Positions 48,160-58,049 of a stretch of 64,000 bases of DNA are shown piece after piece. The DNA comes from an uncultured Eubacteriales bacterium (GTDB lineage Bacteria; Bacillota; Clostridia; Oscillospirales; Oscillospiraceae), in contig ONGR01000007.1 of NCBI GenBank assembly GCA_900317425.1, forward strand, positions 1 to 64,000, given 5' to 3'. The notes below the pieces were generated by a model, which was not told the DNA's origin, searched no databases, and was given only the letters and a program-made list of their open reading frames with translations. A program made the position numbers and the translations under genes. How positions within the stretch are numbered: the first letter of the stretch is position 1; every line of letters starts with the position of its first letter.

Positions 48160-49131
48160 ATGGACTACACTCAGTTTGACGTGGTGGCTCTCGGCGAGCT
48201 GCTGGTGGACTTTACCCAGACCGGCATCAGCGCCCAGGGAAACCCCCTCTTTGAGGCCAACCCCGGCGGCGCCCCCGCCAACGTGCTGGCCATGCTCAGC
48301 AAGCTGGGCAAAAAGTGTGCCTTCGTGGGCAAGGTGGGCCGGGACGGATTCGGCGATATGCTGGCCGAGACCCTGCGGAATTCCGGCATCGACAGCCGCG
48401 GCCTCCTCCGGGACGACCACGTCCCCACCACGCTGGCCATGGTCCGCACCCTGCCCGGCGGCGACCGGGACTTCAGCTTCTACCGCAAGCCCGGCGCCGA
48501 TATCATGCTCTCGGCGGAGGACCTGGACGTCCGCCTCCTGCGCCACTGCCGGATCTTCCACTTCGGCTCCCTGTCCCTGACGGATGAGCCCTGCCGCACC
48601 GCCACCCGCCGGGCTCTGGCCATGGCCAGGGACGGCGGCGCCCTGCTCTCCTTCGACCCCAACCTCCGCCTGCCCCTGTGGAACACCCCCAACGACGCCC
48701 GGGAGCAGATTCTCTGGGGCCTTCAGCGCTGCGACATTCTGAAGATCTCCGACGACGAGCTGCTGTTCATGACCGGCGAGTCCGACTTTGACCGGGGCGC
48801 CCATCTGCTCCACCGCCGCTTCCCCAATATCCGCCTGCTGAACGTGACCGCCGGCGCCCAGGGCAGCTACTCCTATTATGACGGCCTGTTCGTGTTCGAG
48901 CCCGCCTGCTCTCTGGGCGGCGTCATCGAGACCACCGGCGCCGGCGACACCTTCTGCGCCTCGGTGCTGAGCTTCGTCCTGGAGCACGGTCTGGACGGCC
49001 TGTCCGGCGACGATCTCCACGCCATGCTGCGCTTTGCCAACACCGCCGCCTATCTGGTCACCACCGGGCGGGGCGCCATCCCCGCCATGCCGGATCGCCA
49101 GCAGGTGGAGGCCCTACTCGCCGCCAACTGA
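48160..49131 (+). CDS. PfkB-family fructokinase
   Basis: A 323-residue ribokinase-fold sugar kinase. NPGGAPANVLAMLSKLG (34-50) with VGKVGRDGFG and the catalytic motif ETTGAGDTF (Asp263) are typical of fructokinases. It would phosphorylate fructose released from sucrose or sucrose 6-phosphate by the locus's glycosidase, passing it to glycolysis. It is the last gene of the sugar cluster and is followed by a terminator. Confidence 0.9.
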   Translation: MDYTQFDVVALGELLVDFTQTGISAQGNPLFEANPGGAPANVLAMLSKLGKKCAFVGKVGRDGFGDMLAETLRNSGIDSRGLLRDDHVPTTLAMVRTLPGGDRDFSFYRKPGADIMLSAEDLDVRLLRHCRIFHFGSLSLTDEPCRTATRRALAMARDGGALLSFDPNLRLPLWNTPNDAREQILWGLQRCDILKISDDELLFMTGESDFDRGAHLLHRRFPNIRLLNVTAGAQGSYSYYDGLFVFEPACSLGGVIETTGAGDTFCASVLSFVLEHGLDGLSGDDLHAMLRFANTAAYLVTTGRGAIPAMPDRQQVEALLAAN

Positions 49132-49153
49132 GCGGCGCACCGAAATATGTCAA

Positions 49154-49183
49154 AAAAGGCGCCCGGTATCACGGGTGCCTTTT
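49154..49183 (+). terminator. Terminator after the fructokinase gene
   Basis: A 12-bp stem with one G-T wobble (49154-49165 with 49172-49183), 6-base loop and a T-rich tail. Confidence 0.85.
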
Positions 49184-49270
49184 CCTTTTCCGCCGGGCCG
49201 CCGTTTTTGTCGATGTAAAGCAACCTCGCTGTAAAGCACGACCAAAATATCATTATTTCCAGTTTTCTTA

Positions 49271-49299
49271 TTTACACGGCGGCGGTTTTTGTATAAAAT
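49271..49299 (+). promoter_or_regulatory. Promoter of the iorAB-ptb-buk operon
   Basis: TTTACA (49271-49276), 17-base spacer and TAAAAT (49294-49299), about 60 bases before iorA, in an AT-rich stretch. Confidence 0.7.
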
Positions 49300-49357
49300 A
49301 ATTATATGTGTCAAAGCATCAATAATCTCAATGAGATATAGAAAGGTGGTCATTCAA

Positions 49358-51112
49358 TTGGATCGACATCTGCTTTCCGGCAATGAGGCCATTGCCAGAG
49401 GCGCTTATGAGGCAGGCGTGAAGGTCTGTTCCGCCTACCCCGGCACTCCCAGCACGGAGATCTTCGAGGAGCTGCCCAAGTACAAGGACGCGCTCTACTG
49501 CGAGTGGGCTCCCAACGAGAAGGTCGCCACCGAGGTGGCCTACGGCGCCAGCATCGCCGGCGTGCGCAGCCTGTGCGCCATGAAGCACGTGGGCGTCAAC
49601 GTGGCGGCGGATCCCATCTTCACGGCAGCCTATAACGGCGTGGGCGGCGGCTTCGTCATCGTCTCGGCGGACGACCCCAGCATGCACTCCTCCCAGAACG
49701 AGCAGGACAACCGCTACTATGCCCGTGCCGCCAAGCTGGCCATGCTGGAGCCCTCGGACTCCCAGGAGTGCCTGGACTTCATGAAGGCGGCCTATGAGAT
49801 CTCCGAGCAGTTCGACGTGCCCGTCCTCTTCCGCACCACCACCCGCGTGGCCCACTCCAAGAGTCTGGTCACCTTCGGCGAGCGGACCGAGCACGAGGCC
49901 CTGCCCTATGCCCGGAACACCCGGAAGTACATCGCCTCCCCCGCCAACGCCATGCTGAACCACCCCAAGGTGGAGAAGAACATGGCCGCCCTGGAGGCCT
50001 ATGCCTGCACCAGCCCCCTGAACAAGATGGAGCTCAACGGCACCAAGATCGGCGTCGTCACCGCCTCCATCGCCTATCACTATGCCAAGGACGCCTTCCC
50101 GGAGGACACCTCCTTCCTGAAGCTGGGCATCACCTATCCTCTGCCCATGGATCTGATCCGCGAGTTCGCCTCCAAGGTGGAGAAGCTCTACGTCATCGAG
50201 GAGCTGGAGGACTACATGGAGTCCCAGATCAAGGCCGCCGGCATCGACTGCGTCGGCAAGGAACTGACGGGCAAGCTCTATGAGCTGAACCCCCAGCTGA
50301 TCCGGGAGCGCGTCTTCGGCGACAAGGCCGAGACCACCGACGTGGGCGTGTCCGCCGTGTCCCGTCCCCCCGCACTGTGCCCCGGCTGTCCCCACCGCGG
50401 CTTCTTCTACACCATGTCCCGCCACAAGGACTTCGTCATCGCCGGCGATATCGGCTGCTACACCCTGGGCGGCTCCGCGCCTCTGAACGCGCTGGACAGC
50501 TGCGTCTGCATGGGCGGCGGCTTCACCGTGGCCATGGGCATGGCCAAGGCCTTTGAGATGTCCGGCCAGACCGACAAGAAGGTCTTCGGCGTCATGGGCG
50601 ACTCCACCTTCTTCCACAGCGGCATGACCGGCGCCGCCGAGATCATCTACAACAAGGGCAACGTGATCCCCATCGTGCTGGATAACTCCATCACCGGCAT
50701 GACCGGCCATCAGGACAACCCCGGCAGCGGCTTCACCCTCCAGGGCGACATCGCCGAGAGCCTGAAGATCGAGGACATCCTCCGCTCCTACGGCTATAAG
50801 AACGTGATCATCGTGGATCCTCAGGATCTCCAGGCTATGGAGCAGGCCGTCCAGGACGCCCTGGCCTCCACCGAGCCGGCGGCCATCATCACCCGCCGTC
50901 CCTGCCTGCTGATCAAGCGCATTAAGCACGACATCGGCAAGTGCGTGGTGGACACCGACAAGTGCATCGGCTGCAAGCGGTGCCTCGGCGTGGGCTGCCC
51001 CGCCATCATCGTGGAGAACAAGAAGGCCCGGATCGACCGGGATCAGTGCGTAGGCTGCACGGTCTGCGCCCAGGTCTGCCCCATGGGGGCCATTTCGAGA
51101 GAGGAAAAGTAA
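49358..51112 (+). CDS. iorA: Indolepyruvate ferredoxin oxidoreductase, alpha subunit
   Basis: A 584-residue TPP enzyme subunit that oxidatively decarboxylates aryl-2-oxo acids to aryl-CoA and reduces ferredoxin. LLSGNEAIARGAYEAGVKV at the N-terminus, CSAYPGTPSTEI, the cluster/TPP region LCPGCPHRGFF and the GDIGCYTLG motif are present. The C-terminal ferredoxin domain has CIGCKRCLGVGCP and CVGCTVCAQVCP, two 4Fe-4S sites. The start is a TTG at 49358 behind AAAGGTGG; no ATG fits. Confidence 0.95.
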   Translation: MDRHLLSGNEAIARGAYEAGVKVCSAYPGTPSTEIFEELPKYKDALYCEWAPNEKVATEVAYGASIAGVRSLCAMKHVGVNVAADPIFTAAYNGVGGGFVIVSADDPSMHSSQNEQDNRYYARAAKLAMLEPSDSQECLDFMKAAYEISEQFDVPVLFRTTTRVAHSKSLVTFGERTEHEALPYARNTRKYIASPANAMLNHPKVEKNMAALEAYACTSPLNKMELNGTKIGVVTASIAYHYAKDAFPEDTSFLKLGITYPLPMDLIREFASKVEKLYVIEELEDYMESQIKAAGIDCVGKELTGKLYELNPQLIRERVFGDKAETTDVGVSAVSRPPALCPGCPHRGFFYTMSRHKDFVIAGDIGCYTLGGSAPLNALDSCVCMGGGFTVAMGMAKAFEMSGQTDKKVFGVMGDSTFFHSGMTGAAEIIYNKGNVIPIVLDNSITGMTGHQDNPGSGFTLQGDIAESLKIEDILRSYGYKNVIIVDPQDLQAMEQAVQDALASTEPAAIITRRPCLLIKRIKHDIGKCVVDTDKCIGCKRCLGVGCPAIIVENKKARIDRDQCVGCTVCAQVCPMGAISREEK

Positions 51113-51115
51113 GCC

Positions 51116-51700
51116 ATGACGAAGAGTAAGAGCGCGCTGTTGGTCGGCGTAGGCGGTCAGGGCGCCATCCTCACCGCAAAAGTATTGGTCAACGGCCTCA
51201 TGAAGGCCGGTTATGACGTGAAAATGTCCGAGGTCCACGGCATGAGCCAGCGTGGCGGCAGCGTCTCCACCCAGGTCCACTGGGGCGAGAAGGTCAACTC
51301 CCCCGTCATCGGCAAGGGCGCCGCGGACATCATCGTGGCCTTTGAGAAGATGGAGGCCGTCCGCTATGCCGACTATCTGAAGCCGGACGGTGTGGTGGTC
51401 ATCAACGACTACGAGATGGCCTCCTCCAGCATCGCCGCGGGGTTGGCCCAGTATCCCGAGGGCTGCCTGGAGGCCATGGAGAAGAACTTCCGCTGCCACG
51501 TGCTGAAGGCCGAGGAGATTGCCCATCAGCTGGGCAGCGTCAAGTGCATGAACATCGTCCTCTTCGGCAGCATGGTCAAGGCCCTGCACATGGAGGATCT
51601 GGTGGACTGGGAGTCCGTCATCGCCGAGACGGTGCCCGCCAAGTTCCGCGAGCTGAACCTGAAGGCCTACCGCGCCGGCTATGACGCGGTGGAGCGGTAA
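51116..51700 (+). CDS. iorB: Indolepyruvate ferredoxin oxidoreductase, beta subunit
   Basis: A 194-residue gamma-type oxidoreductase subunit. LLVGVGGQGAILTAKVL, the SEVHGMSQRGGSVSTQVHWG segment and the typical length identify IorB. It starts 3 bases after iorA and forms the heterodimer with it. Confidence 0.95.
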   Translation: MTKSKSALLVGVGGQGAILTAKVLVNGLMKAGYDVKMSEVHGMSQRGGSVSTQVHWGEKVNSPVIGKGAADIIVAFEKMEAVRYADYLKPDGVVVINDYEMASSSIAAGLAQYPEGCLEAMEKNFRCHVLKAEEIAHQLGSVKCMNIVLFGSMVKALHMEDLVDWESVIAETVPAKFRELNLKAYRAGYDAVER

Positions 51701-51711
51701 GAGGTAGGGCC

Positions 51712-52611
51712 ATGCTGAAAGATTTCAAGGCCCTGCGCGACCGGGTCCAGTCCGGCGCGCCCAAGACCGTGGCCGTGGCCTGCGCCCACGACGCCCACAC
51801 CCTGGAGGCGGTGCTTCACGCCGCCGCCGAGGGCATCCTCCGCTACATCCTGGTGGGCCGCAAGGATGACATCATCCGCATCGGCCACGAGCTGGGCCAC
51901 ACCATTTCCGAGGAGACCATCATCGACGCCGACACCGACGAGGACTGCGCCCGCATCGCCGTGGGTCTGATCCGGGACGGCAAGGCCGACTTCCTGCAGA
52001 AGGGCTACATGCAGACCGCCACCATCCTCAAGGCCGTGGTCAACAAGCAGACCGGCATCGGCACCGGCGGCATCATCTCCCATACCGCCATCATCGAGAT
52101 CCCCGGCTACCACAAGCTGCTGGGCGTGGCCGACGGCGGCATGATCCCCCACCCCGATCTGGAGCAGAAGAAGGGCATTCTCCGCAACGCGGTGGAGGCC
52201 TTCCGGGCTCTGGGCTATGATAGGCCCCTGGTGGCCGCCGTCTGCGCCGCCGAGACCGTCAGCCCCAAGATCCAGGAGACGGTGGACGCCGCCGCTCTCA
52301 AGGAGGCGGCTCTGGCCGGCGAGTTCGGCAGCTGCGCCGTGGAGGGTCCCATCTCTCTGGACCTGGCCATGGACAAGGCCTCCTGCGAGATCAAGCACTA
52401 CGACAGCCCCGTCAGCGGCAACACCGATATCCTGCTGGTGCCCTATATGGCGGTGGGCAACATTTTCGTCAAGGGCCTGCTGCTCTTCGGCGGCACCCGG
52501 ATGGTGGGCGTCGTCACCGGCGCCAAGTGCCCCATCGCCCTCAACTCCCGCAGCGCCAGCTTTGAGGAGAAGTACTACTCCCTCATGGCCTGCGCCGCCA
52601 TCTGCCAGTAA
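51712..52611 (+). CDS. ptb: Phosphate butyryltransferase (acyl-CoA to acyl phosphate)
   Basis: A 299-residue Ptb/Pta-family enzyme that exchanges CoA for phosphate. VAVACAHDAHTLEAVLHAA, ILVGRKDDI, FLQKGYMQTATILKAV and GMIPHPDLEQKKGIL match the Ptb branch. It is placed between iorAB and buk, so besides butyryl-CoA its natural substrates could be aryl- or branched-chain acyl-CoA. It starts 11 bases after iorB. Confidence 0.92.
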   Translation: MLKDFKALRDRVQSGAPKTVAVACAHDAHTLEAVLHAAAEGILRYILVGRKDDIIRIGHELGHTISEETIIDADTDEDCARIAVGLIRDGKADFLQKGYMQTATILKAVVNKQTGIGTGGIISHTAIIEIPGYHKLLGVADGGMIPHPDLEQKKGILRNAVEAFRALGYDRPLVAAVCAAETVSPKIQETVDAAALKEAALAGEFGSCAVEGPISLDLAMDKASCEIKHYDSPVSGNTDILLVPYMAVGNIFVKGLLLFGGTRMVGVVTGAKCPIALNSRSASFEEKYYSLMACAAICQ

Positions 52612-52626
52612 CGGCAAGGAGGAGTC

Positions 52627-53718
52627 ATGTCCTATTTGCAGCTGATTATCAACCCCGGCTCCACCAGCACCAAGCTGGCCCTGTATCGGGACAGCGAGAA
52701 GGTGCTTCAGGAGAGCGTGGACCACAAGCCGGAGGACCTGCAGCAGTATGAGCATATTGCCGACCAGGTCCCCTACCGTCTGGGTCTCATCCGGGACTTT
52801 ATGGAACGCAACCACATCGACGGTCGTCAGCTCTCCGCTGTCATGGGCCGCGGTGGCCTGGTGTTCGGCCTGAAGACCGGCGGCTACCGGGTGGACGACG
52901 CCCTGTGCGAGGCCCTGGTCAACGAGCGGCTGAGCCAGCCCCACGCCTCCAACCTGGGCGGTCTGCTGGCCCGGGCCATCGCCGATGAGTACGGCATCCC
53001 CGCCTACATTTATGACGCCGTCACCTCCGGCGAGCTCACTGAGGTGGCCCAGATCACCGGCATCCCCGACGTGCCCCGCCGCAGCTTCTGCCACGTGCTC
53101 AACAGCCGTGCCATGGCCATCCGCTATGCCAAGGAGCACGGCAAGCGCTATGAGGATCTGAACCTGATCGTGGCCCATCTGGGCGGCGGCGTGTCTGCCA
53201 GCGTCCATGACCACGGCAAGATCGTGGACTCCGTGGGCGACGACGACGGTCAGTTCTCCCCGGAGCGCTCCGGCACCGTGCCCATGCTGCCGCTGATCGA
53301 CCTGTGCTACTCCGGCAAGTATACCAAGGCCGAGATGAAGAAGAAGGTCCGCGGCAAGGGCGGCATGTACGCCCACCTGGGCACCAGCGACTGCCGTGTC
53401 ATCGAAAAGCGTGTGGCCGAGGGCGACAAGCACGCCGACCTGATCTTCCAGGCCCAGGCCTACCAGATCGCCAAGACCATCGGCCTTCTGTCCATCGTCC
53501 TCAAGGGCCGCTGTGACGCCATCATTCTCACCGGCGGTCTGGCCCACTCCAAGCTGCTGACGGATCGGATCACCGATTACGTCCGGTTCATTGCCCCCGT
53601 CTGTGTCCTCCCCGGCGAGAACGAGATGGAGGCCCTGGCCCAGGGCGGACTGCGGATCCTCACCGGAGCGGAGCAGGCCAACATCTATCACATTCCCGAA
53701 AAGGAGGAAACCTTATGA
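52627..53718 (+). CDS. buk: Butyrate kinase
   Basis: A 363-residue acetokinase-family enzyme that makes ATP from acyl phosphate and ADP. IINPGSTSTKLALY, MGRGGLVFGLKTGGYRV, VAHLGGGVSASVH and ILTGGLAHSKLLTD are typical of butyrate or branched-chain acid kinases. It follows ptb by 15 bases behind AAGGAGG, giving the classical ptb-buk pair, and overlaps the aminotransferase gene by 4 bases. Confidence 0.95.
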   Translation: MSYLQLIINPGSTSTKLALYRDSEKVLQESVDHKPEDLQQYEHIADQVPYRLGLIRDFMERNHIDGRQLSAVMGRGGLVFGLKTGGYRVDDALCEALVNERLSQPHASNLGGLLARAIADEYGIPAYIYDAVTSGELTEVAQITGIPDVPRRSFCHVLNSRAMAIRYAKEHGKRYEDLNLIVAHLGGGVSASVHDHGKIVDSVGDDDGQFSPERSGTVPMLPLIDLCYSGKYTKAEMKKKVRGKGGMYAHLGTSDCRVIEKRVAEGDKHADLIFQAQAYQIAKTIGLLSIVLKGRCDAIILTGGLAHSKLLTDRITDYVRFIAPVCVLPGENEMEALAQGGLRILTGAEQANIYHIPEKEETL

Positions 53719-54899
53719 TCTCTCCTCTGATGATGCAGCACGGAAAGACCAAGAGCCGCATCCGCGATCTGTTTGAGTACGGTCTGCGGCAGGCCGCCAT
53801 CGTCGGCAAGGAAAACGTGTTCGACTATTCTCTGGGCAACCCCTCCGTCCCCTCCCCTCCCGAGATCGCGGATACCATCCGTGACCTGATGAGCATGGAG
53901 CCTCTGGCCCTCCACGGCTATACCCCCGCCAGCGGCGCCAAGGAGGCCAAGGAGGCCGTGGCGGCGGATCTGCGCCGCCGCACCGGCGACGACATCGGCC
54001 CCGAGAACATCTTCTTCACCTGCGGCGCCGCCCCCGCCCTCATCTCCGTGATGCGGGCGTTGGCCGTGGAGGACGCGGAGATCCTTCTGCTGGCCCCCTA
54101 TTTCTCCGAATACCCCGTGTTCGCCGCCACCAACGGCATGAAGCCCGTGGTGGTCCCCGCCGACACCCGGGATTTTCAGCTCCACGCCGACCAGGTGGAG
54201 CCCTACATCACCGCCCACACCCAGGCCGTCATCGTCAACTCTCCCAACAACCCCTCCGGCGTGGTCTACAGTCGGAAGGCCCTGGAGGAGCTGGGTGCCG
54301 TCCTCACCCGCAAGAGCGAGGAGTACGGCCACCCCATCTATATCATCGCCGATGAGCCCTACCGTGAGCTGACTTATGACGGTGAGGACGCCCCCTATAT
54401 CCCCGCCATCTATCCCAACACGGTGATCTGCTATTCCTACTCCAAGTCCCTGTCCATGCCCGGCGAGCGCATCGGCTACGTCTGCGTGCCCAACTGCGCC
54501 GCCGACAGCGCCGATCTCTATGCCGCCGTAGCCGGCGCGGCCCGCACTCTGGGCCACGTCTGCGCCCCGTCCCTGATGCAGCGGGTCATCTCCCTGAGCA
54601 CCCAGCTGCGCCCGGACATGGCCTCCTACGACCGCAACCGTATGCGCCTGTACCTGGATCTGACGGACATGGGCTTCCGGTGCATCAAGCCCAAGGGCGC
54701 CTTCTACATGCTGGTGGAGGCCCCCGACGGCAATTCCGAGGCCTTCTCCGACAAGGCCAAGGAGAAGAACCTGCTCCTGGTCCCCGCCGACGGCTTCGGC
54801 TGCCCCGGCTTCGTCCGGCTGAGCACCTGCGTCAGCTACGACATGATCCTGCGCAGTCTGCCCGCCTTCCGGGCCCTGGCCGCGGAGTACGGTCTCTGA
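53715..54899 (+). CDS. PLP-dependent aminotransferase class I/II
   Basis: A 394-residue fold-type I aminotransferase. FDYSLGNPSVPSPPEI, VNSPNNPSGVVYS, IADEPYRELTYD and the PLP lysine in CYSYSKSLSMPGERIGY are visible. Position after iorAB-ptb-buk, with translational coupling to buk, suggests it converts an aromatic or other amino acid to the 2-oxo acid used by IorAB. Substrate specificity is inferred from context only. Confidence 0.9.
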   Translation: MISPLMMQHGKTKSRIRDLFEYGLRQAAIVGKENVFDYSLGNPSVPSPPEIADTIRDLMSMEPLALHGYTPASGAKEAKEAVAADLRRRTGDDIGPENIFFTCGAAPALISVMRALAVEDAEILLLAPYFSEYPVFAATNGMKPVVVPADTRDFQLHADQVEPYITAHTQAVIVNSPNNPSGVVYSRKALEELGAVLTRKSEEYGHPIYIIADEPYRELTYDGEDAPYIPAIYPNTVICYSYSKSLSMPGERIGYVCVPNCAADSADLYAAVAGAARTLGHVCAPSLMQRVISLSTQLRPDMASYDRNRMRLYLDLTDMGFRCIKPKGAFYMLVEAPDGNSEAFSDKAKEKNLLLVPADGFGCPGFVRLSTCVSYDMILRSLPAFRALAAEYGL

Positions 54900-55003
54900 A
54901 AAAACTGTCAACCCAGCGGCCCTGTGCCGCGATTGATACTGTCCGCCAGTCGCTCTGTCGATGACCGGGGTATCCTCTAAAAACATATGGAGGTAACTGT
55001 ATC

Positions 55004-56650
55004 ATGGCAAAAGAATATCCCCTGAACGTGAAGACCCCCCGCTCCCTCACCTACGTGACCCGCAACATCCCCGAAGTGACGGTGGAACAGCGTGAGCGCG
55101 CGCTGAAAGCCACCCACTACAATGAGTTCGCCTTCCCCGCCGGCATGCTGACGGTGGATATGCTGTCCGACTCCGGTACCACCGCCATGACCGACGTCCA
55201 GTGGTCCACCATGTTCCTGGGCGACGAGTCCTACGGCCGCAACAAGGGCTATTACGTCCTGCTGGACGCCTTCCGCGACGTGTTTGAGCGGGGCGGCGAG
55301 AAGAACTGGAAGAAGTCCATCGACCTCATCCGCACCGACTGCCAGGACATCGACAAGCTGATGGATGAGCTGTACCTGTGCGAATATGAGGGTGGCCTCT
55401 TCAACGGCGGCGCCGCCCAGCTGGAGCGCCCCAACACCTTCCTCATCCAGCAGGGCCGCGCGGCGGAGTCCGTCCTCTTCGAAATGGTCAAGAAGATCAT
55501 GTCCCAGCGGTATCCCGGCAAGGTGTTCACCATCCCCTCCAACGGCCACTTTGACACCACCGAGGGCAACATCAAGCAGATGGGCTCCATCCCCCGCAAC
55601 CTCTATAACAAGGAGCTGCTGTACGAGATCCCCGAGGGCGGTGTCTATGAGAAGAACCCCTTCAAGGGCGACATGGACGTGGAGAAGCTGGAGAAACTGA
55701 TCCAGCAGGTGGGTCCCGAGAACGTGCCTCTGATCTACACCACCATCACCAACAACACCGTTTGCGGCCAGGCCGTGTCCATGAAGTCCATCCGTGAGAC
55801 CGCCAAGATCGCCGAGAAGTACGACATCCCCTTCATGTTCGACGTGGCCCGCTGGGCGGAGGACTGCTACTTCATCAAGGTCAACGAGGAGGGCTATGCC
55901 GACAAGTCCATCGCCGAGATCGCCACGGAGATGTTCTCCTACTGCGACGGCTTCACCATGTCCGCCAAGAAGAACGGCCACGCCAACATGGGCGGCATGC
56001 TGGCCTTCCGCGACAAGGGCCGCTTCTGGCGGAAGTTCTCCGAGTTCAACGAGGACGGCACCGTCAAGACCGACGTGGGCGTGCTGCTGAAGGTCAAGCA
56101 GATCTCCTGCTACGGCAACGACTCCTACGGCGGCATGTCCGGCCGCGACATCATGGCCCTGGCCGCCGGTCTCTATGAGGAGTGCAACTTCCACTATCAG
56201 GAGGCCCGCGTCAAGCAGTGCGAGTATCTGGCCCAGGGCTTCTACAAGGCCGGCGTCAAGGGCGTCATCCTGCCGGCCGGCGGCCACGGCGTGTACATCG
56301 ACATGACCCAGTTCTTCGACGGCAAGCGGGGTCACGATACCTTCGCCGGCCAGGGCTTCTCCATCGAGCTGATCCGGCGCTACGGTATCCGCACCTCCGA
56401 GCTGGGTGACTACTCCATGGAGTACGATCTGAAGACCCCGGAGCAGCAGGAGGAGCTGTGCAACGTGGTGCGCTTCGCCGTCAACCGCAGCCAGCTCAAT
56501 CAGGAGCACATGGACTACGTCATCGCCGCAGTGAAGGCCCTCTATGAGGATCGGGAGTCCATCCCCAACATCCGCATCGTCAAGGGCCGCACCCTGCCCA
56601 TGCGCCACTTCCACGCCTTCTTGGAGCCCTATCCCAACGAGGAGAAGTAA
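55004..56650 (+). CDS. Tryptophanase / tyrosine phenol-lyase family enzyme (long form)
   Basis: A 548-residue beta-eliminating lyase. MLTVDMLSDSGTTAMTD, QQGRAAESVLF, SNGHFDTTEGNI, ITNNTVCGQAVS, FMFDVARWAED and the PLP lysine (Lys323) in TMSAKKNGHANMGG match TnaA/Tpl. The C-terminus LPMRHFHAFLEP also fits. Compared with the 456-471 residues of known enzymes it has about 46 extra residues at roughly 96-141. It would release indole or phenol, pyruvate and ammonia. Which amino acid it uses cannot be told. It lies 104 bases after the aminotransferase gene, with no terminator between. Confidence 0.88.
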   Translation: MAKEYPLNVKTPRSLTYVTRNIPEVTVEQRERALKATHYNEFAFPAGMLTVDMLSDSGTTAMTDVQWSTMFLGDESYGRNKGYYVLLDAFRDVFERGGEKNWKKSIDLIRTDCQDIDKLMDELYLCEYEGGLFNGGAAQLERPNTFLIQQGRAAESVLFEMVKKIMSQRYPGKVFTIPSNGHFDTTEGNIKQMGSIPRNLYNKELLYEIPEGGVYEKNPFKGDMDVEKLEKLIQQVGPENVPLIYTTITNNTVCGQAVSMKSIRETAKIAEKYDIPFMFDVARWAEDCYFIKVNEEGYADKSIAEIATEMFSYCDGFTMSAKKNGHANMGGMLAFRDKGRFWRKFSEFNEDGTVKTDVGVLLKVKQISCYGNDSYGGMSGRDIMALAAGLYEECNFHYQEARVKQCEYLAQGFYKAGVKGVILPAGGHGVYIDMTQFFDGKRGHDTFAGQGFSIELIRRYGIRTSELGDYSMEYDLKTPEQQEELCNVVRFAVNRSQLNQEHMDYVIAAVKALYEDRESIPNIRIVKGRTLPMRHFHAFLEPYPNEEK

Positions 56651-56681
56651 GAAAAAGCCGCAATAATCCGTAACCACACCG

Positions 56682-56719
56682 TAAAAAGGCACCTGAAATC
56701 CGGGATTTCAGGTGCCTTT
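56682..56719. terminator. Bidirectional terminator between the lyase and CoA-transferase genes
   Basis: A long stem (about 16 bp, 5-base loop) flanked by AAAAA and TTTT between converging genes. Confidence 0.9.
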
Positions 56720-56738
56720 TCCTATGTGTTTTTCGTCT

Positions 56739-58049
56739 TTACAGCAGCTTGGCCTCTCTGGCGCAGGCTGTCAGCTGATCCCGGAAGTCGGGGTGGGCCA
56801 GAGAGATGACGGCCCGGATGCGGTCCTTCATCAGCAGGGGCTTGAGGTTGATGCAGCCGTACTCCGTTATCAGATACTGGGTATCGGCCCGGGGTGTGGT
56901 CACCGCCGTATAGGGCGGGAAGTAGGGCACGATGCGGCTGTGGCGCTCGCCCCGCTTGTCCACGAAGGTAGAGGTCATGGCGATGATGGACTTGCCGCCC
57001 CGGGACATCTGGGCTCCCCGGACGTAGTCCAGCTGACCGCCCACGCCGCTGAACTGCCGGCCGGTGATGTTGTCGGCGCTGATGGCGCCGTAGAGGTCGG
57101 CGGACATGCCGGTGTTGATGGAGATCATGTTGTCGTTCTGCCCGATGAGATTCATGTCGTTGATCATGGGGAAGGGCAGATAGTACATGTCCTCATTGTG
57201 GTCCAGGAAGCGGTACAGCTTCTCGCTGCCGGAGGTAAAGCCCACCACCGTCTTGCCCGGCAGCAGGGTCTTGCGCCGGTTGGTGACCACGCCCATCTTC
57301 ATCAGATCCATCAGCGGGTCGCTCATCAGCTCGGAGTGGATGCCCAGGTCGTTCCGATCCACCAGGCCGTAACCCACGGCGGTGGCTACGTTGCCGATGC
57401 CCAGCTGGATGCAGGCGCCGTCCGGGATCTGCTCCAGGATGATCCGGGAGATCTGCTTCACCGTCTCGTCCGCCGGGCGGAGGCCGCTCTCGCCCAAGGG
57501 CCGGTCGGACTCCACGATGGCGTCCGCCTCCGTCACGTGGATCAGATTCTGCTCACCGTAGACGTAGGGCGCGCGGCGGTTCACCTCCAGGATCACCGTC
57601 TTGGCCTCATCCGCCATGAAGCGGTGGAGGATCACGCCGGAGGAGCTGAAGCTCATATAGCCGTTCTCATCGGGAGGGGACACCTCCAGAAACGCCACGT
57701 CCGGCACACTGGTCTCATGGCACCAGATGGGGATCTCCCGCAGGTGGACGCTGGTAAAGTCGCCCTGGCCCCGGTCGATGGCGGAGCGCTCCTGGGGCCC
57801 CACGAAAAAGGTGTTGAGCCGGAAGCCCTCGATCTCGCCCCGGAGAAGTCGCAGGGGCTTGAGCACCAGGGAACAGCTGACGGTCAGGTCCCGGATCTCA
57901 TCCTTCCGGTCCGCCAGGGCGTCGCACAGATCGCCTGCGGCGCTGCTGCAGGTGCCGATGAACACGTTGTCGCCGCTCTTGACGCACTTGACGGCCTCCG
58001 CCGCCGTGGTTAGCCGGGCCTGGTATTCCCGCATGGCTTCTTCCTTCAT
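56739..58049 (-). CDS. Acyl-CoA:acetate / 4-hydroxybutyrate CoA-transferase family protein
   Basis: A 436-residue family I-type CoA-transferase of the acetyl-CoA hydrolase/transferase group. Glu240 in LGIHSELMSD corresponds to the catalytic glutamate of 4-hydroxybutyrate and butyryl-CoA transferases. VSPPDENGYMSFSSSGV and FSGVGGQLDYVRGA are also typical. It probably uses acetate as CoA acceptor in acid formation. ATG 58034 has a better-spaced AAGGAAG site than 58049, so the protein may start five residues later (MREYQARL). Confidence 0.9.
   Translation of the reverse strand: MKEEAMREYQARLTTAAEAVKCVKSGDNVFIGTCSSAAGDLCDALADRKDEIRDLTVSCSLVLKPLRLLRGEIEGFRLNTFFVGPQERSAIDRGQGDFTSVHLREIPIWCHETSVPDVAFLEVSPPDENGYMSFSSSGVILHRFMADEAKTVILEVNRRAPYVYGEQNLIHVTEADAIVESDRPLGESGLRPADETVKQISRIILEQIPDGACIQLGIGNVATAVGYGLVDRNDLGIHSELMSDPLMDLMKMGVVTNRRKTLLPGKTVVGFTSGSEKLYRFLDHNEDMYYLPFPMINDMNLIGQNDNMISINTGMSADLYGAISADNITGRQFSGVGGQLDYVRGAQMSRGGKSIIAMTSTFVDKRGERHSRIVPYFPPYTAVTTPRADTQYLITEYGCINLKPLLMKDRIRAVISLAHPDFRDQLTACAREAKLL

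Follow-up and report, generated by a model that had tools for sequence, protein, structure and literature searches.

A conserved six-gene unit in an uncultured Oscillospiraceae bacterium is predicted to ferment aromatic amino acids by oxidative and lyase routes

The window analysed here, the first 64,000 nucleotides of contig ONGR01000007.1 from an uncultured Eubacteriales bacterium (Oscillospiraceae; assembly GCA_900317425.1), carries six adjacent genes that probably form an operon for the fermentation of aromatic amino acids by two routes, one oxidative and one through a lyase. The genes encode both subunits of an indolepyruvate:ferredoxin oxidoreductase (IOR; iorA and iorB), a phosphate acyltransferase (ptb), a kinase of the butyrate kinase family (buk), a pyridoxal phosphate (PLP) aminotransferase and a tryptophanase-family lyase. 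In the predicted pathway, the aminotransferase would convert Phe, Tyr or Trp to the corresponding arylpyruvate, which IorAB would oxidise to arylacetyl-CoA, reduced ferredoxin and CO2; Ptb would then swap the CoA for phosphate, and Buk would release the arylacetate together with one ATP. The lyase would cleave Trp to indole, ammonia and pyruvate, and this pyruvate could be turned into acetyl-CoA, acetyl phosphate and finally ATP by a PFOR-like protein and the products of Pta- and Ack-type genes, while Rnf could re-oxidise the reduced ferredoxin (RnfC was found in the genome). A division of labour between the two routes appears plausible: Phe offers a beta-lyase no leaving group and would therefore be restricted to the oxidative route, and Trp could take either.

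The genes, the families they belong to, their spacing and the conservation of their order are read directly from the sequence. IorA passes the model for the IOR alpha subunit and ends in a C-terminal 4Fe-4S domain (Fer4, Pfam); IorB passes one IOR beta model (NF005325) but fails four other beta models. Buk scores above the cut-off of the butyrate kinase equivalog TIGR02707, and Ptb scores below the NCBIfam butyryltransferase cut-offs (TIGR02706, 276 versus 410.5 bits); since ten relatives of Ptb, with and without a link to IOR, likewise miss the TIGR02706 cut-off, this model does not discriminate. The nearest PDB entry to the aminotransferase is 3ele, named 'Amino Transferase' (440 bits). The genes for the 2-oxoacid:ferredoxin oxidoreductase (OFOR), the acyltransferase and the kinase adjoin one another, the arrangement by which an oxidative aromatic fermentation cluster is recognised, and for the aminotransferase, IorAB, Ptb and Buk we infer aryl specificity.

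How far does this gene order extend beyond the window? Named genomes were scanned for relatives of Buk, and the best 80 of at least 436 confirmed loci were used; what we say about genes in relative loci rests on tblastn hits and hidden Markov model scans (working numbers with L denote loci, those with G genomes). Of these 80 loci, 42 have iorA or iorB in view, and 21 keep the five-gene order iorA-iorB-ptb-buk-aminotransferase; the sequence-only reading had proposed such a survey. The lyase comes next in 12 of the 21; eight carry the five genes with no lyase next, including a Treponema locus (L150), and one more (L118) has two aminotransferase genes. The lyase is also present in two cut-off pieces (L094 and L115), and in total lies in 14 of the 23 loci that we class as module-type (L094-L112, L115, L118, L119, L121), with the contig ending too soon in two (L107, L112). 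Spacing within the unit is near-constant, with a few exceptions; in four loci, for instance, 71-173 bases separate ptb from buk. A chance run of genes was ruled out, because the order recurs in many genomes. The nearest named relative among the 80 loci is the Ruminococcaceae metagenome-assembled genome (MAG) RUG12786 (L094, 92% identity in Buk). For 11 of the 23 module-type loci, the title mentions a site in the ruminant gut, and a rumen origin of the bacterium is likely.

In the window itself, the six genes sit at the places and spacings previously claimed for them, separated by 3, 11 and 15 bases, a 4-base overlap and finally 104 bases (Table 1). The beginning of the span needs a different interpretation: position 49271, from which the unit had been counted, is the start of a promoter-like site, and iorA likely begins at the TTG at 49358, which is preceded by AGAAAGGTGG and has an ATG at the equivalent position in three relative loci (L103, L112, L118). 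On the plus strand of positions 49000-56800, a consensus scan found this single promoter-like site, and terminator-like sites only at 49165-49179, 5' of iorA, and 3' of the lyase; none lies between the aminotransferase and lyase genes, which bears out the terminator-free junction described before. On both strands together, site counts are about what shuffled sequence gives (promoters 2 versus a mean of 1.6; terminators 6 versus a mean of 4.1), so the weight of these signals rests on conservation. Boxes resembling the promoter-like site also precede iorA in the other four aligned loci from the genus (L034-L037), and the next gene upstream varies: it encodes a fructokinase in the window and in G029, and belongs to the aconitase family in G019 and to the GntR family in G001. 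With the boxes kept despite the differing upstream genes, and no plus-strand terminator-like site found inside the unit, the six genes are likely to be transcribed as a single unit.

Table 1. Features of the six-gene unit and its flanks (positions in the window), with the evidence for each assignment
Feature	Position	Strand	Evidence
Promoter-like site TTTACA-17-TAAAAT	49271..49299	+	Consensus scan; boxes of similar kind in L034-L037
iorA, indolepyruvate:ferredoxin oxidoreductase alpha subunit, likely TTG start	49358..51112	+	TIGR03336, 702 bits (cut-off 650.9)
iorB, beta subunit	51116..51700	+	NF005325, 250.5 bits (cut-off 230)
ptb, phosphate acyltransferase family	51712..52611	+	PF01515, 118.6 bits (cut-off 24)
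buk, butyrate kinase family	52627..53718	+	TIGR02707, 447 bits (cut-off 289)
PLP aminotransferase	53715..54899	+	NF005305, 490 bits (cut-off 376)
Tryptophanase-family lyase, long form, 548 aa	55004..56650	+	NF009709 (subfamily PRK13238), 605 bits (cut-off 285)
Terminator-like hairpin	56684..56720	+	Consensus scan
Convergent CoA-transferase-family gene	56739..58049	-	PF13336 and PF02550

The upstream region differs among the wider set of loci. A divergent LysR-family gene lies 5' of iorA in 12 module-type loci (L098, L099, L101, L102, L105-L111, L119), each at least 61% identical to that of L105, which was checked with Pfam; the window has the fructokinase gene instead. In L101 and L105-L111, a conserved AT-rich stretch between the LysR-family gene and iorA could be an operator, and in the loci of the genus the upstream alignment shows a different conserved stretch 5' of the promoter-like site.

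A tie between the kinase and the oxidoreductase comes from a tree of 92 Buk proteins, in which we call a kinase IOR-linked if iorA or iorB lies at most 8 kb away (L036, L037 and L213 were excluded because they match the contigs of L097, L095 and L096, respectively, in length and content). The Buk of the window falls into a 29-row clade (support 99/94) with members from Oscillospiraceae, Lachnospiraceae, unplaced Clostridia and one MAG labelled Erysipelotrichaceae; 26 rows, including the window, are IOR-linked, and the other three lie too near a contig end to be read. In the neighbouring 25-row clade, which includes Flavonifractor and Lawsonibacter, no IOR was seen (six rows are near a contig end). 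Across the tree, the IOR label changes 12 times compared to 29.3 times in shuffles, none of 500 of which came as low, a figure helped by near-copies; 11 of the 38 rows labelled as lacking IOR are near a contig end, and the tree program flags long branches (L088, L055, L151 and others). Ptb gives a similar picture, with 59-98% identity to the window in loci of the 29-row clade versus 37-55% in solitary ptb-buk loci. Some of these solitary pairs, with no IOR in view, are followed by an aminotransferase gene whose product is 48-50% identical to that of the window (L130, L132, L133, L139, L140, L143, L146, L148, L149, L155, L160).

The rest of the genome, a 1.87-Mb draft that is 96% complete, was searched as well. 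The only two POR_N proteins found are IorA and a 1187-aa frame that is PFOR-like by size, which means that no VOR was found; VOR-type branched-chain oxidation was rejected as a role on this ground. Together with the IOR-tied kinase clade and published assays of a C. difficile kinase (see below), this context supports the earlier proposal that Ptb and Buk serve arylacetates, with butyrate as a possible further use. The oxidative fermentation that had been read from the locus is likewise, by context, the best interpretation of the conserved unit.

Several observations pull in the other direction. The lyase is missing from seven of the 21 module-type loci whose contig continues. The IOR-linked kinases fail to form a single clade, as the 12 label changes attest, and other IOR-linked Ptb proteins, outside the 29-row clade, share 46-60% identity with that of the window, making them as distant as many solitary ones. 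Symporter genes near buk are no clean marker of amino acid use, occurring in seven of 42 IOR-linked and three of 38 other loci. Adjacent crt-hbd-acyl-CoA dehydrogenase-etfB-etfA genes are present elsewhere in the genome, in which the Ptb and Buk of the module are the only ones found. Finally, neither prephenate dehydratase (PDT) nor TrpA was found in the 96%-complete draft, which would suit a pathway running in reverse. The last two points each lead to an alternative that deserves to be weighed.

The first is that Ptb and Buk also, or even mainly, convert butyryl-CoA from the crt-hbd-acd-etfBA products to butyrate, the adjacency of iorAB being secondary. With these genes present, the genome can probably make butyryl-CoA: EtfB and EtfA pass models for the electron-transfer subunits of acryloyl-CoA reductase, and the crt, hbd and acd products miss the cut-offs of their best NCBIfam models but pass Pfam. 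The match of Buk to the butyrate kinase model fits this use, as does the lack of any second Ptb- or Buk-type gene among those found in the genome, which has one full-length Pta-type and one Ack-type gene, both apart from the module. However, no ptb or buk match was found beside the crt-hbd-acd cluster, and in the kinase clade of the window every row that can be read is linked to IOR. Moreover, the convergent CoA-transferase-family gene next to the unit is another possible outlet for butyrate, though it scores under the butyryl-CoA:acetate CoA-transferase cut-off (TIGR03948, 342 versus 675 bits). It and the Ptb-Buk pair are the candidate butyryl-CoA outlets that we see in this genome, and it may be an alternative outlet for acyl-CoA. 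On balance, we regard a butyrate role of Ptb and Buk, whether shared or dominant, as unlikely, though worth keeping in mind, and prefer the arylacetate assignment.

The second alternative concerns the direction of the pathway. In reverse, Buk and Ptb would activate arylacetates at the expense of ATP, IorAB would use reduced ferredoxin to carboxylate the arylacetyl-CoA, and the aminotransferase would make Phe or Trp for an auxotroph. The PDT and TrpA families, not found here, were detected in 14 of 14 control genomes, and chorismate synthase, the only other gene of the pathway searched for, was found. That rumen bacteria make Phe from phenylacetate is old knowledge, to judge by a cited title, and Jiang et al. 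2026 (PMC13285125), in the part of the paper available, describe every step as reversible and propose that IOR paired with an AMP-forming ligase may serve biosynthesis. In the genus, PDT is absent from 16 of 18 IOR-bearing versus eight of 14 other genomes (Fisher p 0.10). Outside the genus, the counts are 13 of 43 versus three of 24 (p 0.14), or ten of 40 versus six of 27 if three genomes with a long partial IorA at a contig end (G049, G052, G084) are not taken as IOR-bearing; draft genomes and the relatedness of the species weaken all of these figures, and the association of IOR with the absence of PDT is weak. On the other hand, a lyase of the tryptophanase family, encoded within the unit itself, would destroy Trp, and Jiang et al. 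2026 (PMC13285125) assign Ptb-kinase pairs to degradation in the accessible part of their text. Nor was a T-box or other leader found before iorA with Rfam, searched over the whole window and over positions 49100-49400, the latter giving two sub-threshold matches at chance level. The catabolic direction is further favoured by the symporter and glutamate-dehydrogenase-family genes of the Treponema locus, by the C. difficile kinase assays and by the occurrence of glutamate-dehydrogenase-family genes near buk in four of 42 IOR-linked versus none of 38 other loci. We therefore read the pathway in the forward direction and hold the biosynthetic direction to be distinctly unlikely. A combination of both is conceivable, in which the unit is a two-way aromatic valve: with Phe, Tyr and Trp in ample supply it would gain ATP by degrading them to arylacetates, and in times of scarcity it would be reversed to make Phe or Trp from arylacetates of the rumen. 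We put this forward as a speculative and rather improbable idea. If true, it would explain in genetic terms how Phe is made from phenylacetate in the rumen, a synthesis known for a long time, and the lyase would give some lineages an additional overflow route for Trp.

What does the lyase contribute to a catabolic unit? It matches PDB entry 8sl7, named Tryptophanase, from end to end with 1062 bits and shares its long form; the match to the Proteus vulgaris tryptophanase 1ax4 reaches 231 bits, and in the alignment with the P. vulgaris enzyme the lyase has about 45 extra residues near 96-148. Alignment with tryptophanases shows that an SAKK stretch, which we take to be the site of the PLP lysine, and a C-terminal RHF stretch, presumably holding the tryptophanase-type histidine, are retained, and that a Leu lies opposite the tryptophanase Ile, where tyrosine phenol-lyase (Tpl), as we assume, has Arg. 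The lyase scores far under the equivalog cut-offs of both TnaA (TIGR02617, 297 versus 826 bits) and Tpl (TIGR02618, 274 versus 721 bits), and Tpl as the first-choice identity was rejected on the latter score. These shortfalls leave room for an enzyme other than a tryptophanase, one that would release phenol from Tyr or act on a different beta-substituted amino acid (Cys or Ser, for example). The end-to-end match to 8sl7 speaks against this, as do the tryptophanase-like residues just named and the ranking of the listed PDB matches, among which tryptophanases score above Tpl entries, so that we consider such a specificity very doubtful. Of the two products originally envisaged for this branch, indole thus fits better than phenol, and we infer that Trp is the main substrate of the lyase.

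Conservation also speaks for selection on the lyase as a working enzyme. Among the proteins of the unit, comparison of the window with six module loci gives the highest amino acid identity for the lyase (92-99%) and the lowest for the aminotransferase (67-85%), and the third codon positions of the lyase gene are conserved about as in iorA, iorB and ptb. The long lyase is present in all five relatives of the genus that have a window-type iorA (G001, G010, G019, G025, G029; some in pieces), and no close copy was found in the other members of the genus searched. Among 99 genomes, one further close copy turned up (G053; L212, 8144-11901), where a RidA-family gene, the long-form lyase (79%) and a symporter gene of the Na+:neurotransmitter family stand in a row with no IOR in view.

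Related iorAB loci vary at the Ptb-Buk step. A PaaK-type AMP-forming ligase gene lies near iorAB in 23 of 60 fetched relative loci (checked with Pfam in L080); these loci share the adjacent iorA and iorB with the window, with the ligase in place of Ptb-Buk. In G035 (L038, 5619-11812), a permease-like gene is followed by iorA, iorB, a CoA-transferase-family gene and an aminotransferase gene, the third of these four pathway genes occupying the place of ptb-buk and encoding a protein 40% identical to the CoA-transferase-family member beside the unit of the window. Nine members of the genus (L039, L040, L042-L048) have a more distant buk directly 5' of iorA, with no ptb in view in these buk-iorA-iorB loci; a TetR-family gene lies upstream in the two that were checked (L039, L042). 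In G010 (L035, 8080-8210), the end of iorB is followed by 48 unmatched bases, the last codons of buk and then the aminotransferase and lyase genes, so that either ptb and the greater part of buk have been lost or the assembly is wrong here. The exchange of Ptb-Buk for a CoA-transferase or an AMP-forming ligase, and its apparent loss, amount to a natural series on how arylacetyl-CoA is cashed in. A combination similar to that of the window occurs in a spirochaete, Treponema sp. Pcl387_bin1 (L150, 5288-15468), where iorA-iorB-ptb-buk-aminotransferase is followed by a symporter gene of the Na+:neurotransmitter family, a gene of the glutamate dehydrogenase family and one for an ordinary lyase of the tryptophanase family. 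In L052, L057, L058 and L080, iorAB lies near genes for the beta subunit of a Na+-transporting decarboxylase (checked with Pfam in L052 and L080).

Finally, we would like to place the unit among known systems. The sequence-only reading had seen its novelty in an oxidative branch with its own Ptb-Buk pair; this does not hold, as two papers from 2026, in the parts accessible to us, describe OFOR-Ptb-Buk gene sets. In Clostridium scatologenes, the trio HpdDEFG-HpdJ-HpdK has been characterised for tyrosine (Jiang et al. 2026, PMC13285125): as in the window, an OFOR, a phosphate acyltransferase and an acyl kinase are encoded in one cluster that serves an aromatic amino acid and yields ATP together with reduced ferredoxin. 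HpdDEFG is, however, a four-subunit VOR-like enzyme whose cluster includes an arylacetate decarboxylase, whereas the window has an IOR-type enzyme with a fused alpha subunit and a lyase in the unit. According to the same available text, genes for an acyltransferase and a kinase or ligase are found close to many IOR and VOR/Hpd sequences in Peptostreptococcales, the kinase beside a C. difficile IOR (Cd2) is active in assays on phenylacetate and hydroxyphenylacetate and less so on indoleacetate, and the biosynthetic role is suggested for the Bacteroides IOR with its AMP-forming ligase. The Cd2 system resembles the window in having an IOR-type enzyme with an associated kinase, a likeness of description, and the text available mentions no lyase for it, unlike the window unit. 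In the accessible portion of DeFeo et al. 2026 (PMC13290082), multiple OFOR loci in Intestinibacter bartlettii and Blautia hydrogenotrophica co-occur, as here, with aminotransferase, ptb and buk homologues, and aromatic 2-oxoacids are substrates for PPFOR-like enzymes from gut acetogens that are encoded by two genes; these are other gut bacteria, and no lyase is mentioned there. The unusual feature that remains is the tryptophanase-like lyase inside the unit, for which we found no description in the open-access literature. We regard the locus chiefly as an informative variation on a known pathway.

The analysis presented here places a published kind of pathway into one compact and conserved unit of uncultured Oscillospiraceae that likely live in the rumen, and this unit ties together the oxidative and the lyase routes for aromatic amino acids. 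If it works as we read it, these bacteria would supply ruminants with phenylacetate, hydroxyphenylacetate, indoleacetate and indole.

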